From Saccharomycodes ludwigii (lineage: Eukaryota > Ascomycota > Saccharomycetes > Saccharomycodales > Saccharomycodaceae), in contig NC_060202.1 in NCBI RefSeq assembly GCF_020623625.1, forward strand, positions 1,739,501 through 1,803,500: a DNA stretch of 64,000 nt. Reading direction: 5' to 3'. The translations under genes and the position numbers were made by a program. The notes under the pieces were generated by a model, which was not told the DNA's origin, ran no database searches, and saw only the letters and a program-made list of their open reading frames with translations. How positions within the stretch are numbered: the first letter of the stretch is position 1; each line of letters starts with the position of its first letter. Below are positions 8,729 to 63,783 of the stretch, one piece after another.

Positions 8729-9128
8729 GTATTATATTTTTTCCTTTTTTTTCATTTTTATTTTCTTTATGGACAAAATTTATGAACAGTTTGTATGCAA
8801 GCGCTTCGGGGAGTAAATTTATTCCCCATACAAAAACGTTCTTTTCTTTTCTTTTTCGTTCTATATAAAAATTAATTTTTTTTTCTTTTTTTCTTTTTTT
8901 CCCCTCTCAAACGTTGTTTGTTTTCTGAGAAAAAAAAAAGTTTTTTCTTAGTATATAAAGAGCAAGATATTTCGCATCAACATCTAACCACCCGTATTTA
9001 CTCTTGTTTTGTTTTCCATCTTTCTTTTCTTCTTTCTATAACTTTTAATTTTGGTATTTTAATAGTGTAGTTCTTTTTAGTCTTACATATGTTTTTTTAA
9101 AAATCTTTTTTGATTTACTTCCCTCCCC
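8729..9128. other. tRNA terminator and U1 snRNA promoter region
   Basis: Begins with the Pol III terminator T runs. A 20-bp palindrome with one G:U-type mismatch (GGGGAG... ...TTCCCC) lies at 8808-8827. TATATAAAG at 8952-8960 is the best TATA box, about 170 bases before the U1 5' end; the sequence between is pyrimidine-rich. No protein-coding gene is supported. Confidence 0.5.
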
Positions 9129-10360
9129 ATACTTACCTTGAGATGTAGAAGGAGATCAAGTAGTCCTTCCTACCAAACGTTTTACCTCTGAATGTTTTTT
9201 TGTTTTTTTTTCTTTAATGCTTTTTCATCTTTTCACTTTTGTTTTCTTTTTTCTTTTTTTGTTTTCTATTCCTTTTTTTAAGGATTAGTAGGATGATTGA
9301 GGAAGGGGGAAAATTGTGGAAAGTGTATGGCAGAGAGGATGAAAAACGGGGAAACATTGGAAGACTTTTATTTTATTTTAATATCAAGGAAAATTATTTG
9401 AAAGTTGAGTAGTAAGAAGATTTTTGTCTTTTTATTTTTTAACTTTTAAATTTCTGCGGTTTTTATTTTTTTTCTCAATTTTTTGAGGGAAAAATGAAAA
9501 TTGCTTTTTTTTCCTTTACAAGATATGGAATGGGAGATTCTCTTCTTTTTCATTTCTTGTTACCAATTGCAACGTTTTTGTTTTCTTACATTTGCTGTTT
9601 CCTGTATTTTTTTTCCCATTTTTTTCTTCTTTTTTTCTTTTTCTTTCTTCATTTGATGTATTTATACATTGAGTGTGGAGAGAATTTTTTTAAGAGAAGA
9701 GAAGGTGGATAAAATAAGGAATTTGCATTTTGATTTAGTTGCGAGCTTCTCAGTATTTTGGAGGTACGTTTGCTGACACTTTTTGATTCCTCGTTTCCTG
9801 AATTCAATTATATTTTATGGATTTGAAATGTTGGATCTTTGTTTGGGAGAGAGAGAAAAAAAGCTTTTTTTTTTTTTTTTTTCAACTGGATGGGGATCCG
9901 TTTTGTTTCTCTTCCTTTGTAAAGTATAGTTATACGGATTTAGGAAACCCTTTATGTCTCCAGCCATGGTGGAGGGTTAGCACAGACAGGAATTTTATAT
10001 TTATAAGGGGTGTATTAATTTCTTTTTTTTCTTTTTTTCTTTTTTAGTTCCTTTTAAGGATCTGATAAAAGGATGGACGAGAGAAAAGAAAAGAGTATGC
10101 TCTAAAAGGGGAGGAAATTAGTTTGTGAGGTGTTTTTTTTAACACTTTGCTTAATTTTCTTTCCATTAGAATGAATCATTTTTATACATGTTATTTATAT
10201 TTCATTATATTTAATGGTTCATTTATAAATATATGGTTTATACTATTTATTTTTTTTTCTAAATTGAAGAATTTTTAAAAATCTGTGCGGAGGAAGCTAG
10301 GGAAGAATTATTTCTTTTCTGGTGAAAGTGGGTAGGTCTCATAATTTTTGATTTATTTTT
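9129..10360 (+). ncRNA. SNR19: U1 spliceosomal snRNA, greatly enlarged
   Basis: The 5' end begins ATACTTACCTTGAGAT at 9129; ACTTACCT (9131-9138) is the segment that pairs with the 5' splice site. It is followed by stem-loop I: AAGGA / TCCTT closing the loop GATCAAGTAG, the U1-70K binding loop, with GTAG/CTAC extending the stem. Inside, GTTTGCTGAC at 9768-9777 repeats a block I recall from S. cerevisiae U1. The 3' end has the Sm site in ATAATTTTTGATTTATTTTT (10341-10360), preceded by GGTGAAAGTGGGTAGGTCTC, which aligns with the end of S. cerevisiae U1. The span is about 1.23 kb versus 568 nt in S. cerevisiae. It would act in the U1 snRNP in 5' splice-site selection. Gene symbol by homology; the exact 3' end is inferred. 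It is convergent with AIM6. Short ORFs within it are Phe/Ser-rich translations of T tracts and not genes. Confidence 0.9.
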
Positions 10361-10434
10361 TATTTTTATTTTTATTTTTTCTATTTTTATTTTTATTTCT
10401 ACTTTATTTCAAATTTTATTTTTTTTTTAATGGT

Positions 10435-10454
10435 CGTACATCGGTCGATGTACG
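10435..10454. terminator. Near-perfect palindrome downstream of the U1 Sm site
   Basis: CGTACATCG (10435-10443) and CGATGTACG (10446-10454) are perfect reverse complements separated by two bases, or an 8-bp stem closing a GGTC tetraloop. It lies about 80 bases after the U1 Sm site and about 90 bases past the AIM6 stop. In yeast, U1 precursors are trimmed after cleavage of a 3' hairpin by Rnt1; a hairpin here could serve that role, though the loop is not the canonical AGNN. It could equally be a 3'-end signal for AIM6. Confidence 0.4.
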
Positions 10455-10543
10455 TAAAGTAGAGAGAGAAAAATATGTGTATATATTACTTGTATTGTCT
10501 AATTATAACATTTTATATTATACAAACAAATTGTACAGTCGAT

Positions 10544-11857
10544 TTAAAATGCAATTATGGCGTCTAGATCATTAGTGTTTAAAAAGTTCGAGTTTAGTTC
10601 GTTGTATTGTTGTTTCCATAATGTGTTTCTGATGTGAATGGGCCACTCAGGAACACCCCAGATCCTTGTTTCTAAATTTACCTCATGCGCAATATTTATT
10701 TTGTTTTTAATACATCTAATTTCGAAATGGGCCATCTCTCTCGGGTAGAAAGGCAACTTGCGTATGCCGCTGTAACTTTCATAATCTTCACTATTGCTGT
10801 AACAAGATGCAATTAGTTTGGACATTGAAGAGGATGTAATCAATACAGCGTCCCTTTTTTCTTTTAATATTTGGATGGCGGCCTCTTTGGAAGTGAAATC
10901 ATCAAAGTCAATGTCAAAGAAAATATATGGTTTCAACATTTCATCTTCATGTCCATGAAGATCGGGATAATTACCCGTCAATATAATAGTTATTGGCTTC
11001 CAAACTATGGTATTTTCTATTGTGCCATCATTTGACGGTGTCCCACGGCGATAAGTTAAATAGCGAGATATAGTAGATAAATGGGATTCAACTAAAACAT
11101 TATACGTTTTTACAGAATCTTCCGATTTAAAATCGATAAATAGGAAAGTTGTGGTTTCTGGACTGTTGTAAAACATTCCATATGTTACATTGTTATCGTG
11201 GTTGATTTCATTTAACATATATACCATGGGGTCTAAATATAGCTTCTTTAAATTTTTGTGTTCTGGATTCAAGTATAGATTATTATGGCCGACGGCCAAT
11301 GTAGTATTATCATAGTCTTCCACCAACCAGACATCAGCTTCCACACTGTTTACTCCATGTAACAATGCATCAAATAAGGGCAATGCTCTCCAATAATCGT
11401 TATGAGAATGGACTGAGTTCAATGGGTCTACATCTCTAGTCAACACCTCTATCATAGATTGAGTGTCTAACTTGTTAGATAATATAAATTTCCAGAATAG
11501 ATCATAATAGGAAGATACTACAACTTTATTACTACTTGCATTTGTAGTATTCCCTTGATTATAATTGTTATTGTAAGGGTGGAAATGTTTTGGAATATGT
11601 TTGTTTAGATAATCCAAATTGTCATTGAAATACCGCAACAACTTAATACCAGACAATCCTCCAATAATGGGCTGGATTTTAGTCGAATCCTCCAGACTGA
11701 CATTAATATCATCATCGTTCCACCAACCGTCATTAATTTCCTTCCAAAAACCTTTACCACTATTATTATCGGTAGAGAACACTAGAAGTATATAATAGAA
11801 ACAGAGAAGGAGAAACACACTACTTACCACTTTGGAGTAAGTTACTGATTTTAACAT
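10544..11857 (-). CDS. AIM6: Aim6-like membrane-anchored protein with PLC-like phosphodiesterase fold
   Basis: 437 residues, somewhat longer than S. cerevisiae Aim6 (about 390). The function of Aim6 is not established beyond altered inheritance of mitochondria in the mutant. Seen here: one N-terminal hydrophobic segment (about 10-28), which reads as a signal anchor or signal peptide; a variable Asn-rich linker (about 95-112); then the conserved phosphodiesterase-like core with VHSHNDYW (149-156), EADVW (173-177), GHN (190-192), and later a DFKSED motif. These His, Glu and Asp residues sit as in glycerophosphodiester phosphodiesterase-type TIM barrels. It is divergent from GUD1, as YDL237W and YDL238C are in S. 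cerevisiae. Confidence 0.9.
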   Translation of the reverse strand: MLKSVTYSKVVSSVFLLLCFYYILLVFSTDNNSGKGFWKEINDGWWNDDDINVSLEDSTKIQPIIGGLSGIKLLRYFNDNLDYLNKHIPKHFHPYNNNYNQGNTTNASSNKVVVSSYYDLFWKFILSNKLDTQSMIEVLTRDVDPLNSVHSHNDYWRALPLFDALLHGVNSVEADVWLVEDYDNTTLAVGHNNLYLNPEHKNLKKLYLDPMVYMLNEINHDNNVTYGMFYNSPETTTFLFIDFKSEDSVKTYNVLVESHLSTISRYLTYRRGTPSNDGTIENTIVWKPITIILTGNYPDLHGHEDEMLKPYIFFDIDFDDFTSKEAAIQILKEKRDAVLITSSSMSKLIASCYSNSEDYESYSGIRKLPFYPREMAHFEIRCIKNKINIAHEVNLETRIWGVPEWPIHIRNTLWKQQYNELNSNFLNTNDLDAIIAF

Positions 11858-61722: not shown

Positions 61723-63255
61723 TCACCATTTAGAGGCAACATCAAGAGGGTTAGCATTCAGGTTATTGTTATCACTGGAAATATCACCAACATCCTTACT
61801 ATCTTTAACAGATTTAAAAGTGTACTCATAATAGGCATGTTTATCATGTTTGTTAATATCATCCTTGACTATCAAAGGCAGGTTTTTCAACTGTTCTTCA
61901 TACCTTTTATTTAATTCCTTAATATATAATGTACGTCTTTTTGCATTATTATCTGTTTGTTCCGGGAATATTAAACCACCTCCATTAATGCAGCCGCTAG
62001 GGCACGCCATTACTTCTATAAAATCTGATTTGAAAGGATCCACTTTAACGCCAGAGGTTGCAGTGTTTGTTGTAGTCCCCTTCAATCTATTCAAACGCGT
62101 ATTCAATTTAACTAATTTCTTGTTGATCTTATTGGCAGGACTTTTCAAGGTGAATTTCCGAACCATGTTTTGGATATTTCTAAATCCGTATAATTCGCAG
62201 CTACATTTTACAATTTCCCCATTTTTCATGAGCCTATACTCTTTTATGTCATTATTTTTCCCATGAACAGTTTCTATAGAATACAGCTCATCGCTAGTGT
62301 TATTCTCTGTGTATTTTTTGAACTCATGTAAAATGTACTGGTAGGCATAACCACCACTACTACTGCCCTCGTTGCTACACCAACTTCGAACCGGATCAGA
62401 AAAAACTTTTAACATGCTGGGATTGAATTTTTTATAAAAGACCTCCGCGTCCTTGTCTAAAACTACAGGATAAGCGTTAAAGTCTATATTTAAGTCTGCA
62501 AACATATTGACAACCTCTTTTGGTGTTATAACGCAATCAACTTCATTCTCGCCGTCCTCTCTAGAAGCCTCTAACTTCTTATCAAAGCAGGGCATAATGC
62601 TTAAATGATATATTTTATTTGAACGCAATCCGTTTTTTAACACTGATCCAGTAATCTGTTGCGGCGATTTCACGTTTAGTAAATGAGGTAAAAGAGTAGG
62701 ATTTGTCTTTTCGCAATATAAAACAAACCCAGGACATACTGACGATAATTTGGGTAACGCTCCAGTCGGTGTTGCACATTTGTCTAATTTATCTATCATT
62801 TGCTCTATCGCTATTTCTCTTCCGATTTGAGTGCCAACAATATATGTAGCTCCGAATTTTTCATGCATTATAGTTAAAAATATTTTATCAAATTCGCTGA
62901 CGGTAATGTCATTGAAATATTTACTTAATGAGATTCTGCACTGAGGTGAAATACTGACAGCCAAAATTCTATCCTGATTTTTTATGCTATTTTCATTCAT
63001 CCAAGAATCTAAAAACACTTTCGCACTTTGTTTGCTTAATAACAATTCTTCTGAGGATGTAATACAACCTGAACATGCTAAACAATCCTGCAAGGAAATG
63101 GAAACTTTCTCCAAATCCACATCTTCTTTTCCGACTTCTAATTCATTATCTTTTGTCTTTTCTATCTGAGTTTGTTTATTTTTTATGGGCTTTATGCATG
63201 CTGTCCCAGGAGATATGAAATCATTTAAATCTTCTTCAGATAAAATCGCACTCAT
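61723..63255 (-). CDS. NAR1: Nar1, cytosolic iron-sulfur protein assembly factor
   Basis: 510 residues versus about 491 in S. cerevisiae. Nar1 is an iron-only-hydrogenase-like protein of the cytosolic Fe-S assembly machinery; it links the Cfd1-Nbp35 scaffold to the Cia1-Cia2-Met18 targeting complex. It has the N-terminal cluster cysteines C20, C58, C61 and C64 (DCLACSGC) and the four C-terminal cluster cysteines C174 (SVCPGF), C223 (MPCFDKK), C418 and C422 (ACPSGC). The end here is DVASKW; the final Trp is the targeting-type C-terminal residue known from Fe-S clients and adaptors that bind the CIA targeting complex. Matches YNL240C; downstream neighbour ZWF1. Confidence 0.96.
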   Translation of the reverse strand: MSAILSEEDLNDFISPGTACIKPIKNKQTQIEKTKDNELEVGKEDVDLEKVSISLQDCLACSGCITSSEELLLSKQSAKVFLDSWMNENSIKNQDRILAVSISPQCRISLSKYFNDITVSEFDKIFLTIMHEKFGATYIVGTQIGREIAIEQMIDKLDKCATPTGALPKLSSVCPGFVLYCEKTNPTLLPHLLNVKSPQQITGSVLKNGLRSNKIYHLSIMPCFDKKLEASREDGENEVDCVITPKEVVNMFADLNIDFNAYPVVLDKDAEVFYKKFNPSMLKVFSDPVRSWCSNEGSSSGGYAYQYILHEFKKYTENNTSDELYSIETVHGKNNDIKEYRLMKNGEIVKCSCELYGFRNIQNMVRKFTLKSPANKINKKLVKLNTRLNRLKGTTTNTATSGVKVDPFKSDFIEVMACPSGCINGGGLIFPEQTDNNAKRRTLYIKELNKRYEEQLKNLPLIVKDDINKHDKHAYYEYTFKSVKDSKDVGDISSDNNNLNANPLDVASKW

Positions 63256-63474
63256 TTTGTTGTATGCAAAAGAGTCTTCTTCTTTTTAAAAAAACTTTGC
63301 TATACTTTTTCGTTATTTTTTTTAAGAGAAAAGAAAAAAAAAAAAAAAAAAAAAAAAAAAGAAAAGAAAAAAGAAAAAGACTAATATTATATATAATAAA
63401 ATATTATTTTATAGTTTAATTAGTAATCATCTACAAAAGTTAATCATTTCTTTTTTTCTTTTCTTTTTTTCTTT

Positions 63475-63521
<47 letters not shown>

Positions 63522-63783
63522 CAAATAAAAAAAAAGGCAATTAATCCATAGCAAAACATCCGTAACTCTACATCCGTTTATCCGTTCAAGATGAATAAAA
63601 GAAAGAAAAAATTTAGCACAAACCTTTCAAGAATCAAATTGATAAAATAGAATTTTTTTTTTTTTTTTAATATAAATAGTGAAAAAAATACACAACTTTT
63701 AAATACATTTCAACTGTCTAAAACATATAAATAATAGGAAAAAGGAAAAGGGAAAAGAAAAAAAAAAAAAAAAAAAACTCTTC
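63256..63783. promoter_or_regulatory. NAR1 promoter with a T45 tract
   Basis: An A run of about 26 (63335-63360), pyrimidine sequence, then an uninterrupted T45 at 63477-63521. Just beyond are ATCCG (63558-63562), ATCCG (63572-63576) and TTATCCG (63578-63584). Another A run of about 20 ends just before the 3' end of the next gene (63759-63778). Confidence 0.55.

Follow-up and report, generated by a model that had tools for sequence, protein, structure and literature searches.

A predicted 1,231-nt U1 snRNA with a conserved core and lengthened arms in Saccharomycodes ludwigii

The U1 locus and its sequence elements

The Sd. ludwigii assembly amounts to 12.50 Mb and consists of seven contigs of 0.79-3.08 Mb plus one of 26 kb; the whole stretch of DNA analyzed here (hereinafter, the window) covers 64 kb of contig C3 (G000:C3:1739501-1803500) and has a GC content of 30.7%. 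Among 10 chromosome-contig ends (included in L019-L025, L028, and L031-L033), six carry irregular TGTGGG/CACACCC telomere-like repeats and seven carry tandem repeats built around TCCGAATATTATAACCCGAATACTTCA, in either orientation; the same repeats open the 26-kb contig C8.

The genes flanking the locus belong to the Alg9, adenylosuccinate synthetase, Pop1, Ssu72, and Atg4-type peptidase families; POP1 and SSU72 flank the U1 gene of S. cerevisiae as well. Moreover, an open frame of 437 aa (10544-11857, reverse strand) lies between U1 and an amidohydrolase gene and gave no Pfam match at E<=0.001. The elements recognized at the locus are listed below, with window coordinates, strand, and, in brackets, the basis of each assignment.

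8952-8959, forward: possible TATA box TATATAAA, preceding the start of the RNA by 177 bp (sequence; putative promoter role)
9129-10359, forward: U1 snRNA gene, predicted mature RNA of 1,231 nt (RF00488 matches to both ends, fold)
9129-9138, forward: 5' splice-site recognition sequence AUACUUACCU (10 of 10; RF00488 positions 1-10)
9139-9144, forward: LR1, partner of LR2 at 10336-10341 (6 of 6 standard pairs; one double and one single change with respect to the S. cerevisiae sequence)
9145-9173, forward: stem-loop I (SL1), U1-70K site by homology, loop GAUCAAGUAG (RF00488, core pairs, fold)
9174-9772, forward: SL2 domain, 599 nt (closing stem and interior z of -13.8)
9175-9188, forward: 5' arm of SL2-1 (11 pairs, with five double changes and one single change)
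9194-9355, forward: predicted hairpin occupying the position of SL2-2, its 66 pairs interrupted by bulges and small internal loops (mean pair probability 0.94)
9396-9727, forward: other predicted SL2 hairpins, at 9396-9451, 9456-9504, 9518-9560, and 9593-9727 (fold)
9761-9771, forward: 3' arm of SL2-1, overlapping GTTTGCTGAC at 9768-9777 (core pairs, pattern search)
9773-10335, forward: SL3 domain, 563 nt (closing stem and interior z of -11.6)
9793-9948, forward: predicted hairpin of 65 pairs with an 18-U run at 9865-9882 (fold)
10336-10341, forward: LR2, partner of LR1 (hand-aligned pairs)
10342-10352, forward: Sm site UAAUUUUUGAU, in DNA TAATTTTTGAT (RF00488 match reaching the end of the model)
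10435-10454, forward: downstream hairpin CGUACAUC-GGUC-GAUGUACG, candidate RNase III (Rnt1) 3'-processing site (fold; putative role)

The RNA begins with AUACUUACCU, complementary to 5' splice sites, and SL1 exhibits the U1-70K loop, whose Rfam consensus is GAUCAAGAAG and whose core is GAUCA-G. As in yeast-type U1 RNAs, the SL2-1 stem (9175-9188/9761-9771, 11 pairs) runs into GUUUGCUGAC, and the long-range helix beside the Sm site, which closes the four-way junction, can form all of its six pairs. An earlier note on this DNA had listed a U1 5' end, an SL1 loop, a shared internal block, an internal T run of 17-18, and an Sm site, and each of them was recovered in its place: ATACTTACCT at 9129, the SL1 loop GATCAAGTAG at 9154-9163, GTTTGCTGAC at 9768-9777, a run of 18 T at 9865-9882, and the Sm site TAATTTTTGAT at 10342-10352. 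The start of the gene at 9129 on the forward strand also stands; its 3' end, set at 10360 in the note, is moved by one base to 10359 according to the Rfam match. Upstream of the gene, the TATATA at 8952 is accompanied by a second copy at 8862; in the case of U2, the beginning of the Rfam match is preceded, at a distance of about 115 bp, by a TATATA.

The Rfam model of yeast U1 (RF00488, U1_yeast) retrieved the two ends separately: model positions 1-71 match 9129-9200 with 44.7 bits (E 7.5e-9, in an 80-base stretch), and positions 507-567, where the model ends, match 10300-10359 with 27.8 bits (E 8.7e-5, in a 71-base stretch), these E-values being valid for the stretches chosen by us; for the whole window, the E-values would be larger by a factor of about 800-900. 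At the gathering score (80 bits) the same model did not match anywhere in the window. When 8950-10550 was scanned at E<=10, with overlapping matches within one clan reduced to the best one, RF00488 was not listed and the sole U1 family was the general one, RF00003 (16.3 bits); furthermore, RF00488 had no match at E<=10 in 9755-9830. The covariance-model search that the earlier note had suggested thus succeeds for each end and fails for the gene as a whole, which represents an annotation gap. Weak matches to microRNA families and other Rfam entries in 8950-10550 look like chance fits to hairpins.

Pairing between the two ends and predicted fold

The core pairs were aligned by hand with those of the S. 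cerevisiae U1; the S. cerevisiae sequence used agrees with PMC5648754 in its length (568) and in the places of LR1/LR2 and SL2-1, and with the Rfam consensus at its ends. In S. cerevisiae, according to PMC5648754, the LR1/LR2 helix joins nt 11-16 to 545-550, and SL2-1 is formed by nt 46-60 and 154-167; in Sd. ludwigii, the same helices can form at nt 11-16/1208-1213 and nt 47-60/633-643, respectively. The 26 core pairs of LR, SL1, and SL2-1 are standard in both species (10 doubly changed, two singly changed, and 14 unchanged); in one SL1 pair (nt 21) the partner is displaced by one base. Judging from these 10 double changes out of 26 pairs, the 5' and 3' ends belong together.

When LR1/LR2 was enforced, keeping the 5' end and the Sm site open, the predicted fold reached -392.9 kcal/mol versus -393.6 for the free one, and the domains tiled the RNA without gaps (LR1 at nt 11-16, SL1 at 17-45, SL2 at 46-644, SL3 at 645-1207, and LR2 at 1208-1213). 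The free minimum-energy fold, favored by 0.7 kcal/mol, pairs nt 3-9 with 1203-1209 instead of LR1 with LR2: ACUUACC (9131-9137) can pair with GGUAGGU (10331-10337), a stretch closely preceding the Sm site, and this pairing competes with LR1/LR2; the 5' splice-site recognition sequence paired in a similar way when the S. cerevisiae U1 was folded. The stem closing SL2 (9174-9192/9757-9772) includes 16 pairs with a mean pair probability of 0.77, that closing SL3 (9773-9783/10324-10335) has a mean of 0.82, and the 18-U run is predicted to pair partly with the A/G-rich stretch preceding it.

The comparison with dinucleotide shuffles (24 per strand) gave a z of -19.3 for the RNA strand and of -3.5 for the reverse one, a difference that may arise from the G-U pairs, which are 98 out of 456 in the enforced fold. 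The interiors of SL2 and SL3 taken alone (40 shuffles each) gave the values listed above, while the 20 folds of ten intergenic stretches used as a control (399-570 nt, both strands) ranged from -5.0 to +1.6. Shuffling within blocks of 10, 20, or 40 bases, which preserves T-rich and purine-rich patches, yielded a z between -13.8 and -16.9 for the full RNA, with none of the 120 shuffles as stable.

Along the window, split into 160 non-overlapping 400-nt pieces folded on both strands (320 folds), the forward pieces of 9201-10400 rank from second to fourth; a z of -2.95 was obtained for the piece 8801-9200, into which the initial 72 nt of the gene fall. The top rank is held by a poly-A/poly-T inverted repeat in 63201-63600, whose arms (63316-63408 and 63442-63534) are 78% complementary and look like simple repeats. 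At a finer scale (150 nt), the signal is strong at about 9200-9350, 9320-9770, 9800-9980, and 9980-10250 and weak in between; it is weak or absent around the gene start and over some portions of 9651-9860 and 9861-10070. On the reverse strand, the lowest values (-5.3 and -5.4) fall at the downstream hairpin. With bulges and small loops allowed, the helices of 66 and 65 pairs exceed the longest helix of each of 40 shuffles (24-59 pairs). By the same measure, the longest helix of the S. cerevisiae U1 has 33 pairs and remains within its own shuffles (17-58), so that yeast U1 RNAs are not generally distinguished by the length of their helices.

From these predictions, we conclude that the whole interval 9129-10359 would represent one structured RNA. 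The earlier note had also considered that the extra length might be mere spacer; the strong structure of the RNA strand (z of -19 versus -3.5) argues against a spacer as well as against an intron.

Alternative explanations, RNase III, and RNAi genes

In principle, the gene might be a genuine U1 whose middle is removed, either as an intron-like insertion or through RNase III cleavage, giving a shorter RNA or two annealed pieces. We consider this scenario improbable, even if it survives better than the others. The arms fold far above expectation on the RNA strand, as if they were kept in the RNA, and no GTATGT, GTAAGT, or TACTAAC occurs within the gene; looser intron-like sites do occur (GTATG at 9325 and 10095, and 13 YTRAY), and the motifs used may not be the species' own.

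As for the cleavage, long double-stranded hairpins such as the 66- and 65-pair helices are possible RNase III substrates, and the genome encodes an Rnt1 homologue. Three genes with RNase III domains were found in the assembly, namely the Rnt1-like one and those for the mitoribosomal mL44 and mL57. The first (L051:709-2742, 677 aa) matches Rnt1 with an E of 4.9e-100 (named Ribonuclease 3 in the PDB entries) and K. polysporus Dcr1 with an E of 3.9e-27; unmatched stretches lie before, between, and after its matched domains. Rnt1 substrates are characterized by tetraloops of the AGNN/NGNN form. The enforced fold contains 13 hairpins besides SL1: none of the 12 loops examined is an NGNN tetraloop, and that of the thirteenth (nt 454-459) consists of six bases without G, which speaks against cutting within the arms. 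Downstream of the gene, the hairpin at 10435-10454 exhibits a GGUC loop, of the NGNN form, on eight pairs, within a fold (10360-10520) having a z of -2.1, with 5 out of 200 shuffles as good. These predictions would be consistent with long arms that evade cleavage and a 3' hairpin that undergoes it.

A search for Piwi domains (Argonaute) in the assembly retrieved nothing at E<=1, the control matching only in an archaeon, and genes for RNAi seem to be absent from the Sd. ludwigii genome. A 2017 review suggests that the lengthened outer branches of yeast RNAs may stem from the loss of RNAi (PMC5499181); the failure to find Argonaute, together with RNase III proteins restricted to the Rnt1-like, mL44, and mL57 types, fits this suggestion.

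A further possibility is that the locus is a decayed or interrupted U1 copy and that a working short U1 lies elsewhere or is missing from the assembly. As to the specificity of the U1 elements, the 12.5-Mb assembly contains 21 copies of ATACTTACCT, of which a single one is followed by GATCAAG within 5-30 nt, with no occurrence in the control. GTCTCATAATTTTTGA, joining the helix strand to the Sm site, was found once in the window with 0 mismatches, in a search allowing two, at which 23 out of 100 shuffles also matched, so that the control is weak; its 14-nt core has one exact and 27 one-mismatch matches genome-wide, and the Sm site alone is thus not specific. The pattern GAGGT(N0-4)ACGTTT, derived from this very sequence, matched twice in the window versus 0.09 expected, in both cases in the arms of the SL2 closing stem. 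The DNA search of the assembly with the U1 gene returned 20 matches, i.e., the gene itself and 19 short ones (38-110 bases) falling in its T-rich parts or in its 3' end and flank.

The second, shorter U1 gene that the earlier note had contemplated was therefore not found in the 12.5 Mb, either by pattern or by DNA search. The latter passes over simple repeats and computes scores for the best candidates only, and the assembly may be incomplete, so that some room is left for a missing copy; however, the ends and the core pairs are intact, whereas the structure of a pseudogene would decay, and a decayed copy appears very unlikely. Equally implausible is a misassembly of T-rich arms: T-rich and homopolymer DNA is error-prone, and run lengths may be a base or two off, but the match between the arms exceeds what local composition would give (block shuffles) and the genome was obtained by PacBio sequencing at about 200x with Illumina polishing, according to the assembly description in PMC8567612.

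The enlarged arms and comparison with known U1 RNAs

On the whole, it is very likely that 9129-10359 represents the only U1 snRNA gene found in the assembly and that it encodes an uninterrupted RNA of about 1,231 nt, with a conserved core and lengthened SL2 and SL3. The model matches to both ends, the long-range helices, the strand-specific fold, and the single locus support the reading of one continuous U1 RNA with expanded arms put forward in the earlier note. The enlargement is confirmed as well; its place, on which the note was silent, is mostly SL2. In fact, SL2 measures 599 nt versus 122 in S. cerevisiae and SL3 563 versus 377 (nt 168-544), the S. cerevisiae sizes being taken from published coordinates; out of the extra 663 nt, SL2 accounts for about 477 (about 72%) and SL3 for about 186.

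Concerning the proteins that might meet these arms, all three of the yeast auxiliary U1 proteins sought were found, out of a yeast set of seven also including Luc7, Nam8, Snu71, and Prp40: homologues of Prp39 (E 1.6e-101), Prp42 (E 9.4e-85), and Snu56 (Pfam E 4.5e-35; PDB sequence E 2.1e-6) are encoded. In S. cerevisiae, as described in PMC5648754, SL2-2 is the contact site of Prp42 and Snu56, and the non-essential U1A binds where SL2-1 and SL2-2 meet. The U1A (Mud1) motif CACAUAC, a feature of the S. cerevisiae SL2 and not a mark of U1 membership, is absent from 9129-10359.

According to this reading of a continuous RNA, the gene would be transcribed as one stable molecule, the core of which would work as in other U1 RNAs, with the 5' end pairing to 5' splice sites and SL1 as the U1-70K site. 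The LR1/LR2 helix, SL1, SL2, and SL3 would form a four-way junction beside the Sm ring, and the extra length would be confined to the outer SL2 and SL3, as long U-rich/purine-rich hairpins leaving the junction untouched. Rnt1 might generate the 3' end by cutting at the downstream hairpin, after which the RNA would be trimmed back to the Sm ring. The arms could offer a peripheral docking surface for proteins of the Prp42/Snu56 type or be a tolerated excess, tolerated possibly because the cell lacks Dicer and Argonaute.

Other RNAs were also considered. A single U2 locus was recognized by its core (22-base pattern, at most one mismatch); it is structured over about 800-900 nt (z of -9.75 for 1052-1950 of L027), with no clear sign of enlargement compared to the 1,175 nt of the S. 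cerevisiae U2. The RNase P RNA match, exactly at the cut-off, covers 237 nt and corresponds to positions 75-283 of the 301-position model (209 positions), and the matched stretch is thus hardly enlarged.

A broader scenario, in which this giant U1 arose independently of Nakaseomyces, through the growth of SL2 into selected 65-pair double-stranded hairpins enabled by the loss of Dicer and Argonaute, is conceivable and in our opinion rather doubtful. If true, a tractable yeast would be available for testing whether long RNA arms are connected with RNAi loss, as has been suggested. The locus shows how far an essential and highly conserved splicing RNA can enlarge with its working junction unchanged, and places the growth in the arm that meets yeast-specific U1 proteins. 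With few introns (a frequency of 3.3%; PMC8567612) and no RNAi genes found, Sd. ludwigii is a yeast in which the two possibilities for long double-stranded arms, protein docking and mere tolerance, could be tested directly.

Among the papers listed by searches of the open-licence literature, none dealt with the Saccharomycodes U1, and Saccharomycodes combined with snRNA gave 0 papers. At about twice the length of the S. cerevisiae U1 and more than seven times that of the human one, the RNA has the unusual size claimed in the earlier note, but is less unprecedented than implied there: the U1 of Candida castellii, reported in 2013, is 1,937 nt long (PMC3847288), so that this size class of yeast U1 is already known. 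What looks new, within the literature searched, is the Sd. ludwigii lineage and the SL2-centered growth.

The S. cerevisiae U1 (SNR19, 568 nt; PMC5648754) shares with that of Sd. ludwigii the order of 5' end, LR1/LR2, SL1, SL2-1, GUUUGCUGAC, Sm site, and 3' tail, with the first 60 nt in the same register, and differs in the CACAUAC motif of its SL2. The C. castellii U1 likewise far exceeds 568 nt in a budding yeast and is longer still; it belongs to another, post-duplication lineage (Nakaseomyces), and the passage reporting it gives its length and no structure (PMC3847288). The RNase P and telomerase RNAs of C. glabrata, enlarged according to passages of PMC3847288 and PMC5499181, are different RNAs that carry, as the Sd. 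ludwigii U1 does, longer outer branches on a conserved core. Finally, the human U1 (164 nt, as given in PMC5648754) shares the first 10 nt, the long-range helix, SL1, and the Sm site and differs in being devoid of SL2-2 and in having a small SL3.
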